Positions 4,228 to 33,375 of a DNA stretch of 33,761 nt are shown piece by piece. Position 1 is the stretch's first letter; every line of letters starts with the position of its first letter. The stretch lies in the NCBI GenBank assembly GCA_903878265.1, contig CAIRHD010000108.1, positions 1-33,761 on the forward strand, given 5' to 3'. Source of the DNA: an uncultured Bacteroidales bacterium. Its GTDB lineage: Bacteria > Bacteroidota > Bacteroidia > Bacteroidales > UBA4417. A program made the translations under genes and the position numbers. The notes under the pieces were generated by a model. That model did no database searches. It was not told the origin of the DNA and saw only the letters and a program-made list of their open reading frames with translations.

Positions 4228-4734
4228 ATGGAAAACTCAAAAGCATTGGAGATCCTGAAAACAGCGATACTCCTCGAAAAGCGGGGCAAAGCTTTTTATG
4301 AAAAAATGGCCGAACAGACCGACAGCCCTGAAGCGCGGAAAATATTTACGACGATGGCCGAAGAAGAAAAAGCCCATGTAGAATTTCTCTCCGTACAGTT
4401 TGCGAACTTTATAAAGGAAGGTAAGTTCTCCAAACCCGAATACAATACCAACGCTGAGCCAGAGGATATTTCGCATCACATCATGAATCCACAGTTGATA
4501 AAAGAGATTTCGGCAGCCAGTTTTGAGGCAGCGGCCATTTCGGCAGCCATGGATTTTGAAACAAAGGCTGTTGAACTTTATTCAAAGCGTTCGGTTGAAA
4601 CTGACGATATAAACGAAAAGGCAATGTACAAATGGCTGGCTGATTGGGAAAGCGGCCATCACAAAATCCTGTACGACCTTAACGAAGCACTGAAAGAAAG
4701 TATATGGTACGATAATCAGTTTTGGCCTTTTTAA
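4228..4734 (+). CDS. Rubrerythrin-like ferritin-family diiron protein
   Basis: A 168-residue four-helix-bundle protein. Likely iron ligands are visible as two half-sites: LLEKRG (Glu17) with EEEKAH (Glu47, His50), and DFETKAVELY (Glu111 and/or Glu116) with DWESGHH (Glu141, His144). This is the E...ExxH x2 arrangement of the ferritin/rubrerythrin family. There is no C-terminal rubredoxin domain (no CxxC pairs), so it is an erythrin-only form. Rubrerythrins reduce peroxide in the cytoplasm of anaerobes and microaerophiles; whether this form is a peroxidase or has another diiron role cannot be told. It has its own promoter-like element and a strong terminator 62 nt after its stop, so it is probably monocistronic. 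Confidence 0.85.
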   Translation: MENSKALEILKTAILLEKRGKAFYEKMAEQTDSPEARKIFTTMAEEEKAHVEFLSVQFANFIKEGKFSKPEYNTNAEPEDISHHIMNPQLIKEISAASFEAAAISAAMDFETKAVELYSKRSVETDDINEKAMYKWLADWESGHHKILYDLNEALKESIWYDNQFWPF

Positions 4735-4795
4735 ACAAAGCTTCAGGCTGTTTATGCCTTTCCGCTTGTGATACCAAAGTTGCTTATTCGGCACT

Positions 4796-4834
4796 CTAAA
4801 AAGGGTGATAAGAAATCTCTTATCACCTTTTTAG
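4796..4834 (+). terminator. Rho-independent terminator after rubrerythrin
   Basis: The left arm CTAAAAAGGGTGATAAGA and right arm TCTTATCACCTTTTTAG pair along 17 bp with one bulged G and a 4-nt loop (AATC). The A-run and T-run flanking the G/C core make it able to work in both directions. Confidence 0.8.
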
Positions 4835-4967
4835 ATTCTAAGCAAGAGGTTGTTTACGGGATTATTTTAGGAATTGGGCTATTGAAAATGCGAAGATATG
4901 ATTGCCATTTAGTATTTGGGTGTGCTGTTTATTATTATATGATATAGTATTGGACTGTATATTAAGC

Positions 4968-5325
4968 GATTGAATACTTATGTTAAGAAATAGCATACTT
5001 ACGTTAAGATATTAAACACTTACGTTAAGAGATTGAACACTTACGTTAAGATATTAAACACTTACGTTAAGAGATTGAACACTTACGTTAAGCATTTTAA
5101 TACTTACGTTAAGAGATTGAACACTTACGTTAAGCGTTTTAATACTTACGTTAAGAGATTGAATACTTACGTTAAACGATTGAATACTTACGTTAGGCAA
5201 TTGAATACTTACGTTAGGCAATTGAATACTTACGTTAGGCAATTGAATACTTACTTTAGGCAATTGAATACTTACTTTAGGCAATTGAATACTTACGTTA
5301 GGTAATTGAATACTTACGTTAACGT
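4968..5325. repeat. 21-bp tandem minisatellite, 17 copies
   Basis: The core ACTTACGTTA recurs 17 times at exactly 21-bp spacing (4976, 4997, 5018 and so on to 5312) with no insertion or deletion. The consensus unit is GATTGAATACTTACGTTA plus three variable bases. Copies 3-10 alternate between two unit types, giving a 42-bp higher-order period: even copies carry AGATTGAA, odd ones ATATTAAA, CATTTTAA or CGTTTTAA. Copies 12-16 share AGGCAATTGAA. Two adjacent copies (14, 15) share a CGTT to CTTT change. The array ends in the palindrome ACGTTAACGT (5316-5325). Both strands are open in one frame because 21 is a multiple of 3. No ATG starts the plus frame and substitutions are not biased to silent sites, so I regard it as non-coding. 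Flanks 4835-4967 and 5326-5458 show nothing else. Confidence 0.95.
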
Positions 5326-5458
5326 TTAGATAACTGTCTTTAAAATATCAGCTTCTTAATACGAAACAATAACATCCGACATTTGAAAAGGATGTGATTC
5401 CCAGTTCAGGAACGATAATATCTGGCATCAGTGCGAATAAACGTTAGCTTGTTGGCAT

Positions 5459-5487
5459 AAAAAAAGGGAGCATCTGCCCCCTTTTTT
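5459..5487 (-). terminator. Terminator of the DUF2723 gene
   Basis: AAAAAAGGG and CCCTTTTTT arms surround a short GC/GC inner pair with one A/C mismatch and loop ATCT. It lies 17 nt beyond the stop at 5505. On the minus strand the helix ends in a T-run. Confidence 0.75.
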
Positions 5488-5504
5488 CGTGTGATGTTTC
5501 GATT

Positions 5505-8500
5505 TTATTTCATTGTTCCTGCACGTTGGCTCAGGAATTTATCTATACGTTGCGAAATATCTTTCTGGTTGTACTGGTCAGCAATTTGCTTCATAGTATT
5601 GAAAAAGCCAAAAGCCTCGCTAAGGTCTTCTTCGTAATTGCCACGGAATTCGGGGCTGAGCGAAAGATAATAATCGGCATTCTGCTGATAAATGTGCATC
5701 AACTTACTGGCTAGCTTGTTGCCTTTTTCGAAAGCGCCTGCTTTGTAATACACATCAACAAATTGGATCATGTAGTAATCGAAATGCACTTTATTGTCGG
5801 GGAAAATTTCCTGAACATAATCACAAACTTTTACAGCCGAATCCTTTTTGCCTTCCAAAGTGAGGGTACGGGCCAAACGGGCAAAGTTCTGTTTTGGGAT
5901 CATGGTATTGCGCGAGCTTTCGCGATCGACATACACACCGGGCTGATTGAGGTTGCCCCATTTGCATTTGTTCATCAAAATATCGTACGAACTCTGCGAG
6001 TTTACACTTCCCACACCTTTAATATAGTCTTCCTCATCGGGCTTCACAGGCATAAACCTGTATACGAAACCTTCCTGGTAACAGTATTTATCAACATCAA
6101 CAGCATCGCTGACGCTCGAAGGCTGTGCGAAATAGATAGGACGTTTAAACTTGTTCTTGGCTAGGAAATCAAGCAGCATCAAATCGTTTTTATACAAATA
6201 ATTCGATTTGATATCCCATTCAACAGTACCAACAACCCTGTCGGCCAAATATGCCGGAACAATGCCATTCTTTACCAGGTTGGCCGAATCGACAGTAATT
6301 TTCACCTTTTTGGTTGGGTAAATAGCAATCGACCTCGAACCGCTTTGGAACCTGGACGAAGGATCCTCGCTGGCAATCAAATCCATCAAATCCTGAAGTT
6401 CAACCCTATCCTTTATCTGGCCCGAATATGCCGACACCTCATTTATACCTTTATTATATTGATCGTAGGAAAGTGTGAAAGGCAGAGCTTCCGAATCGTA
6501 TATTTTCCGCATCAATTGATGCACGTACCAATCTCCTGACGAAAGCATGAAATTCACCACCCTAACATCGGTGCGTATCCCTTCCACTTCCTGGGCGTAC
6601 CATAGAGGGAAGGTATCGTTATCGCCGTTTGTAATAAGTATGGCGTTGGGGGCGCAGGAATTGAGGTAGTTGACGGCAAAGTCGCGGGTAGCGAATTTAT
6701 TGGCGCGTGTATGGTCGTCCCAGCCTTCTTTGGCCATAATGCCAGGTACCAAAAGCAAGCAAACCAACGTAATAGGGATTGCAACATACTTTTCGTTCAC
6801 TTTTTTGAGCATATCCCACAAGGCCATTACGCCAAGTCCTATCCATATAGCAAAGGCATAGAAAGAGCCTGCAAAGGCATAATCCCTTTCGCGCGGCTGT
6901 TGGGGCGTTATATTAAGGTATAAAACAATGGCCATGCCTGTCATAAAAAACAGCAACAGCACTACCAGAAAGCCATCCAAATGCTTGCGCAAATGAAAAA
7001 ACATGCCCAAAAGCCCGAGCAATAGTGGCAGGAAATAGAACTTGTTGTTGGCTGCATTGCTCATGCTGTCGGGCAAATTGGTTTGGTCGCCCAGCCTTGC
7101 ATTGTCAAGTGGCGCAATACCACTAAGCCAATTACCGTAACGGATGCCCCCATGCCCTTCGATATCGTTTTGCCTCCCAACAAAGTTCCAGAAGAAATAC
7201 CGCATGTACATGTGCCCAACCTGATAACTCAGGAAAAACCGTACGTTCTCCACAATAGTAGGCTTATACAAAGTTTCGGTTTTCCCTTCTTCGTTGGTTA
7301 CATCAATGGGGATACCATTTATTTTTCCCCACGATTTGTATGCCGCAATATGGCTGGCTTTCTGGTTGCTCCACATACGCGGAAAAATGGTACAGAATCT
7401 TTTATCATACGCAGGTATGGTGTTTTTCCGGTCATCGGTCATTACATACTTCCCGTTTTTCTTGTCCTTTACATAAAATGGGGTTGCATCGCCGGCTTGG
7501 TCCTGGCTTTCCTGGGGTGCGTTGTAATACTGTCCATAAGCTACAGGCCATGTACCGTATTGCTCACGGTTGAGGTACGAGAGCAAGCTAACTGCATCAC
7601 TCGGGTCATTTTCGTTTATTGGCGTATTGGTATTGGCACGGATAACGAGCATAAAGAAGGACGAATACCCAATCAAAAGGAATGCAATGGACAGAAAAAT
7701 TGTATTTGCTGCCGACCGGACCTGATTGCGGTTCAACCGACCGGGTTCGCTCTTATACCAATAATAAACGCCAGCAACTATTAATAGCCCAATGAAGGTT
7801 GTCCATGAAAAAGCAGCCAACAACAGCAAAAGCACACCTCCAACGATGTAGTTTGCCACCGAATGTTTCGACTGGTAAGTAAACCTGATGCTCCATACCA
7901 GAGCACCAATCAGGACAACAAAATAGAATAATGTTCCCGAATTAAACGGAAGCCCAAAGCTGTTCACGAACAATATCTCATATTTCCCGGCAAGGTTTAC
8001 CGTATAAGGTATTACCAGGAACATGATAAATGCAAGGATAAAGAATGAAATGCCCAATGTAAGCACAACACCTTTCCATGTAGTTTTGTATTTGCGGAAG
8101 TAAAAAACAAGCGCAATTGCAGGGATAGCAAGCAAATTGAGCAAATGCACGCCGATGGAAAGCCCCATGAGGTAAGCGATAATTATTATCCAACGTTGCG
8201 AATGAGGTTGGTCGGCAGCCTGATCCCATTTTAAAATTGCCCAGAAAACAATGGCCGTAAAAAACGACGACATAGCATAAACTTCGCCTTCGACAGCCGA
8301 AAACCAAAACGAATCGCTAAAAGTATAAGCCAATGCACCAACAAGCCCGCTACCAAGTATGGCAATCATGCGTCCTGTCGAAATTTCCTCGTCTTTTGTA
8401 AATTTAAGCCCTAACATGGTTATGCTCCAAAAGAGGAACAAGATAGTTGCCGAGCTGCTCAATGCCGACATATAGTTTACCATAACAGCAACTTTGCTTA

Positions 8501-8714
8501 AATCGCCAAAAGCAAATAAGCTAAAAAAACGACCCAGTAACTGAAAAAAAGGTGCTCCCGGCGGATGGCCAACCTGAAGTTTAAACGCGGTAGAAATGTA
8601 CTCGCCACAATCCCACCAACTTGCTGTTGGCTCAACGGTTGACAGATAAACCCACGAAGAGATAGCAAAAACAAGCCATCCCAGTAAGTTATTCAGTTTC
8701 CTGAATGTTTTCAT
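5505..8714 (-). CDS. DUF2723 (GT117 / TMEM260-like) multi-pass membrane protein
   Basis: A 1069-residue protein. After a first hydrophobic segment (about 11-26) comes EPTASWWDCGEY (28-39) and HPPGAPFF (50-57), signatures of DUF2723. The acidic residues Asp35 and Glu38 in the first outer loop are where GT-C glycosyltransferases keep their catalytic acid or base. Many further membrane helices follow, then QQPRERDYAFAGSFY and a long soluble C-terminal part with an LITNGDNDTFPLWY segment and a TPR-like helical end (last 130 residues). The animal relative TMEM260 is a protein O-mannosyltransferase. A periplasmic protein or lipid glycosyltransferase is therefore likely here, but donor and acceptor are unknown. 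Length is normal for the Bacteroidota family. Only a weak -7-like element (8757-8764) is seen upstream. Single gene with its own terminator. Confidence 0.85.
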   Translation of the reverse strand: MKTFRKLNNLLGWLVFAISSWVYLSTVEPTASWWDCGEYISTAFKLQVGHPPGAPFFQLLGRFFSLFAFGDLSKVAVMVNYMSALSSSATILFLFWSITMLGLKFTKDEEISTGRMIAILGSGLVGALAYTFSDSFWFSAVEGEVYAMSSFFTAIVFWAILKWDQAADQPHSQRWIIIIAYLMGLSIGVHLLNLLAIPAIALVFYFRKYKTTWKGVVLTLGISFFILAFIMFLVIPYTVNLAGKYEILFVNSFGLPFNSGTLFYFVVLIGALVWSIRFTYQSKHSVANYIVGGVLLLLLAAFSWTTFIGLLIVAGVYYWYKSEPGRLNRNQVRSAANTIFLSIAFLLIGYSSFFMLVIRANTNTPINENDPSDAVSLLSYLNREQYGTWPVAYGQYYNAPQESQDQAGDATPFYVKDKKNGKYVMTDDRKNTIPAYDKRFCTIFPRMWSNQKASHIAAYKSWGKINGIPIDVTNEEGKTETLYKPTIVENVRFFLSYQVGHMYMRYFFWNFVGRQNDIEGHGGIRYGNWLSGIAPLDNARLGDQTNLPDSMSNAANNKFYFLPLLLGLLGMFFHLRKHLDGFLVVLLLFFMTGMAIVLYLNITPQQPRERDYAFAGSFYAFAIWIGLGVMALWDMLKKVNEKYVAIPITLVCLLLVPGIMAKEGWDDHTRANKFATRDFAVNYLNSCAPNAILITNGDNDTFPLWYAQEVEGIRTDVRVVNFMLSSGDWYVHQLMRKIYDSEALPFTLSYDQYNKGINEVSAYSGQIKDRVELQDLMDLIASEDPSSRFQSGSRSIAIYPTKKVKITVDSANLVKNGIVPAYLADRVVGTVEWDIKSNYLYKNDLMLLDFLAKNKFKRPIYFAQPSSVSDAVDVDKYCYQEGFVYRFMPVKPDEEDYIKGVGSVNSQSSYDILMNKCKWGNLNQPGVYVDRESSRNTMIPKQNFARLARTLTLEGKKDSAVKVCDYVQEIFPDNKVHFDYYMIQFVDVYYKAGAFEKGNKLASKLMHIYQQNADYYLSLSPEFRGNYEEDLSEAFGFFNTMKQIADQYNQKDISQRIDKFLSQRAGTMK

Positions 8715-33102: not shown

Positions 33103-33149
33103 GTAAGGGAAAACCTTTGAGTGAAGGGTTTGGAGAAGGAAGGACTAAG

Positions 33150-33201
33150 GTCAAAGGGTAAAAGTCAAAGGTTAAAAGTCAAAGGTTAAAAGTCAAAGTT
33201 C
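33150..33201. repeat. Short 14-bp tandem repeat
   Basis: GTCAAAGGTTAAAA occurs three times in a row (first copy with GGGT for GGTT) plus a partial fourth. It lies in the 352-nt gap after the propeller gene. An 8-bp stem AAACCTTT/AAGGGTTT (33110-33131, one wobble) precedes it but has no T-run. The rest of the gap, up to the next promoter, shows nothing. Confidence 0.85.
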
Positions 33202-33375
33202 AGAAAACCGAAATAAGTAAAGTTAAAGATCATTGGATAGTTGACAAAGGATGCGGCTTCGCTCCTACCTTTCTAAACCTACCTTCCGCAGTCTGCAATC
33301 CTACATCCCTTGTTTCCAATTTCATTTTTAAATATACAGTATAACATATATATACAACTTTTCGAGTCAAAATTG

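Follow-up and report, generated by a model that had tools for sequence, protein, structure and literature searches.

How a 21-bp sequence comes to stand in 17 consecutive copies, without a single indel, in the DNA of an uncultured Bacteroidales bacterium is the question raised by this locus; the regular spacing may reflect cooperative binding of a protein to one face of the helix or may have arisen by slippage alone. Tandem repeats finder (TRF) analysis of the window, which is the whole 33,761-nucleotide stretch analysed (contig CAIRHD010000108.1), identified a single strong array at positions 4962–5322, with no strand assigned, a period of 21 bp, 17.2 copies, 87% matches, 0% indels, a score of 442 and the consensus TTAAGCAATTGAATACTTACG. 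First-order Markov simulation of the window, run 100 times with its dinucleotide transitions preserved, gave a best score of 59; head-to-tail units longer than ∼10 bp, as expected of a minisatellite, are therefore present well above chance (442 versus ≤59). Array autocorrelation was 0.876 at a lag of 21 and 0.903 at a lag of 42. The indel-free repeat originally placed at 4968–5325 corresponds to this array read in a different phase, and the 10-bp palindrome said to terminate it, ACGTTAACGT, is present at its right edge (5316–5325, no strand assigned).

Inspection of the copies in TRF phase revealed an older, diverged part (copies 1–11) and a homogeneous part (copies 12–17). Copies 3–10 (5004–5171, no strand) alternate between two unit types as predicted, with an identity of 19.8/21 between copies two apart versus 17.7/21 between neighbors (permutation p = 0.0045), which constitutes a 42-bp higher-order repeat. 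This excess at lag 2 supports the proposal that the array grew partly by 42-bp steps. Copies 12–17 (5193–5318, no strand) are an expansion of TTAGGCAATTGAATACTTAC(G/T), evident from the unit listing and from a 55-bp exact repeat (starts at 5179 and 5200) that is the longest internal to the array. A homogeneous second 21-bp expansion had been predicted and is real, but its extent is corrected from copies 12–16 to copies 12–17 in TRF phase. The adjacent pair with one common mutation proved to be copies 14 and 15, which have a G to T change at unit position 21 in common; copy 17 carries one private change. Over the whole array, neighboring copies are more alike than expected by chance (permutation p = 0.006), the local duplication that is characteristic of minisatellites.

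The pattern can be explained by the following minimal model. A 21-bp AT-rich stretch between convergent genes would have been duplicated in tandem via replication slippage or unequal recombination, would then have grown partly in 42-bp steps (copies 3–10), and would later have undergone a fresh 21-bp expansion (copies 12–17). Growth by whole-unit steps would keep the register, so that no protein is needed to account for the 21-bp spacing. The fallback reading that slippage alone could yield the array is thereby supported. For environmental bacteria, slippage has been named as one origin of variation in intergenic tandem repeats (PMC9426551); literature searches with narrow terms found nothing. 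Taken with the evidence presented below, the array is very probably a neutral intergenic minisatellite private to this locus, which slippage or unequal recombination expanded within unconstrained DNA at a break in gene order.

To the original prediction, a unit confined to this locus was one part of what would mark an ordinary neutral repeat, and the search of the genome and its relatives found the unit only here. Against its own 5.78-Mb genome (629 contigs), the whole array matched itself only. A 15-base piece of the unit, with two mismatches or fewer, matched only scattered single sites beyond the array in this genome; the reversed control matched more, at 21 sites. The array was absent from all 15 further genomes of the genus, none of which has two cores within 30 bp of each other. 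In a phylum sample of 395 genomes that includes the array-bearing genome, this genome was the sole match to the core repeated at spacers of 8–18 (0 of the 394 others; 3 for the reversed control).

Wider searches for the core gave a similar picture. A scan of 84,980 species genomes returned 14 stretches, some of which are arrays of 21 or 22 bp whose units differ apart from the core, and viral contigs contained five stretches with the real core, three of them one sequence, versus two and three for control patterns. The genome-contig scan found arrays with ACTTACGTTA in register in a Flavobacteriaceae metagenome-assembled genome (MAG), a Prevotella MAG, an uncultured Bacteroidetes and a cyanobacterium. 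Though striking at first sight, these cross-phylum matches are read, with the phylum sample and the viral contigs as controls, as resemblances to be expected among so many minisatellites. A core common across phyla was rejected given that none was found elsewhere in the phylum sample and that the viral-contig controls gave similar counts; the core does not appear to be a recognizable common element. A common TACT core at 21 bp was likewise rejected: 56 of the 395 genomes matched, but the reversed control gave at least as many by inspection, and the TACT-core matches listed were mostly 7-mer repeats.

The genome that carries the array is rich in tandem repeats. In 552 kb sampled from it, 81 arrays had a TRF score of at least 50 (14.7 per 100 kb), 15 scored at least 200 and 5 scored at least 400. 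Densities of 23.3 per 100 kb in the nearest relative and of 5.5 and 12.0 in two others were likewise obtained from sampled stretches. Among arrays scoring at least 200, 9 of 12 were indel-free in this genome (first 474-kb sample), as were 4 of 5 in the nearest relative. Indel-free arrays being usual here, a strict register needs no special explanation.

These observations bear on the proposal that the array is bound cooperatively by a protein, with one site per two helical turns, organizing the chromosome or seeding a filament. The array is free of indels, its unit length matches two 10.5-bp helical turns, and copies 2–10 contain the dyad CTTA-CGT-TAAG. In addition, variation among copies is low within the unit's AATACTTACGTTA stretch, a possible sign of constraint that counts against the neutral reading. 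That conservation is not significant, however, after correction for how the block was chosen (p = 0.08–0.45), and the dyad is lost in copies 12–17. The unit is private to this locus, recurrence of the core in register does not exceed chance in the phylum sample or in viral contigs, and the genome has many indel-free arrays that differ from it in unit and period. The functional reading of the original prediction (cooperative binding, chromosome organization, phase-variable spacing) is thus unsupported, and a protein-binding array is unlikely.

The genomic setting of the array is also informative. It lies inside a 770-bp gap faced by the 3′ ends of two convergent genes, which encode a rubrerythrin/ferritin-like protein of 168 amino acids (4228–4734, + strand; PF02915, E = 3.7e-13) and a TMEM260-like protein of 1069 amino acids (5505–8714, − strand; PF11028, Pfam E = 9e-79). 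A strong intrinsic terminator is predicted for each, at 4795–4835 on the + strand for the rubrerythrin-like gene (fold −20.7 kcal/mol, z = −5.8) and at 5457–5491 on the − strand for the TMEM260-like gene (fold −18.7 kcal/mol, z = −4.5). The former has a T-tract on either strand, and its scan match was on the − strand. Both terminators folded far better than shuffles, whereas none of four array stretches did so, and an Rfam search found no family at the array; a structured RNA at this position was accordingly rejected.

Because the genes are convergent and a predicted terminator precedes the array on each side, the array is not in the promoter region of either neighbor. As predicted from the terminator models, it lies outside both flanking transcription units and upstream of neither gene. 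Promoter tandem repeats whose copy number varies, causing phase variation, do exist in Mycobacterium tuberculosis (PMC12817950), and control of a neighboring gene by the array, as a promoter repeat or a phase-variable spacer, is conceivable by analogy. The likeness extends to the intergenic tandem repeat itself, but here both neighbors present their 3′ ends, and promoter-like sites were about as frequent (4) as in shuffles (3.4). Phase-variable promoter spacing does not fit this arrangement and is highly improbable.

Starting at a TTG, one + strand frame within the array runs for 90 codons without a stop (5033–5305) and might be taken to encode a peptide. Such a frame is trivial since 21 is a multiple of 3 (7 codons), it is closed by stops in the early and late copies, and no ATG start is present. 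The array is absent from relatives, so that the peptide would have no homologue, and Pfam returned short or sub-cut-off low-complexity matches only. The frame was judged spurious, and the probability that it encodes a peptide is negligible.

Comparison of gene order places the array at a junction. The relatives read have two separate gene blocks, p1-murU-amgK-rubrerythrin and TMEM260-15663-16130-IF2; of all genomes read, only in this window do they adjoin, across the array-bearing gap. The gene after TMEM260 is lgt-like in most relatives and rnz-like, together with different repeats, in the nearest relative, these two names being our own assignments from the printed sequence rather than database matches. 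Downstream of the rubrerythrin gene, content varies from genome to genome. The array is therefore at a gene-order breakpoint, where unconstrained DNA is expected, and it most likely persists since the DNA beyond both terminators would be under little constraint. In the nearest relative, a different, messy 22-bp repeat cluster, GTTCAATTGCTTCGCGTTCAAG, lies ∼1.1 kb downstream of the same TMEM260-like gene (L023:61–416, G011:C15).

That the gene blocks on either side are apart in all relatives read could instead point to an assembly artefact, that is, an incorrect number of copies or an erroneous join there, as could the fragmented draft of 629 contigs and the array length of 361 bp. The 55-bp exact repeat is nevertheless below the k-mers in common use, and the unit occurs at one genome site, so no second array is available to cause a false join. 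An artefact is accordingly most improbable.

Mobile and replicative elements with internal repeats were also considered. The BrickBuilt miniature inverted-repeat transposable element (MITE) of Porphyromonas gingivalis, a member of the same phylum, is intergenic, with few indels and up to 22.8 copies of 23-nt tandem units without spacers (PMC4596501). The present array resembles it in unit length but is confined to one locus, has a 21-nt unit and has neither a multi-copy leader or tail nor terminal inverted repeats: both flanks are single-copy in the genome, and the best inverted repeat between them (score 7) was reached by 77 of 100 shuffles. Given single-copy flanks and no flanking inverted repeats, the array is not of BrickBuilt type, and a MITE of that kind is very unlikely. 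The array is also similar to plasmid replication iterons, which are ∼20-bp direct repeats in one orientation. Its flanks, by contrast, are housekeeping genes (IF-2, amgK-like and murU-like), and no replication initiator (Rep) match was found among the part of the window open reading frames covered, five with Pfam and ten with NCBIfam.

Other 21-bp arrays were encountered in these analyses. Contig C560 of the same genome contains one with a different unit, CTACTTGGTGCTGTACGATGC, in 13.7 copies with 0 indels and a score of 469 (L218:16979–17265, G000:C560). A further indel-free 21-bp array, with the unit TACTTGGTCGTGTACGATGCC, is present on C567 (L242:1501–1762, G000:C567:11448–11709, − strand). 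The units of the C560 and C567 arrays are related (82% identical over 262 bp), their flanks lack homology, each array is homogenized for its own variant, and the remaining genomes of the genus contain neither. At a contig end, L128:1–236 (G000:C120) is a 63-bp higher-order array of three 21-bp subunits. A Bacteroidetes MAG carries two unrelated indel-free 21-bp arrays ∼320 bp apart (L058:4417–4612 and L058:4931–5167), one with a 42/63-bp higher-order pattern.

Rapidly changing, indel-free 21–22-bp arrays of unrelated units might form a functional class that keeps spacing rather than sequence, with the present array, C560 and C567 of the same genome, and L052, L055 and L058 of other bacteria of the phylum as its proposed members. 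Both the class and this membership seem very doubtful; were the class real, it could serve, for example, a loosely specific nucleoid or silencing protein phased with the helix.

As a neutral minisatellite, the array looks like an ordinary tandem repeat, one of many in its genome, and changes no concept. It has in common with intergenic bacterial minisatellites and variable-number tandem-repeat (VNTR) loci units of more than 10 bp, imperfect copies, local homogenization, higher-order steps and an intergenic site. VNTR loci differ in length between strains, such change being the hallmark of an active minisatellite, whereas this array is known from one genome; similar length variation may occur, in which case the array could become a VNTR marker for typing the lineage. 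The array is a further example of the private minisatellites that are numerous in some genomes of this phylum, in this case located at a junction where gene order shifts. TRF also reported a second, short tandem repeat near the window end, consisting of 3.5 copies of the 14-bp unit GTCAAAGGTTAAAA at 33147–33202.
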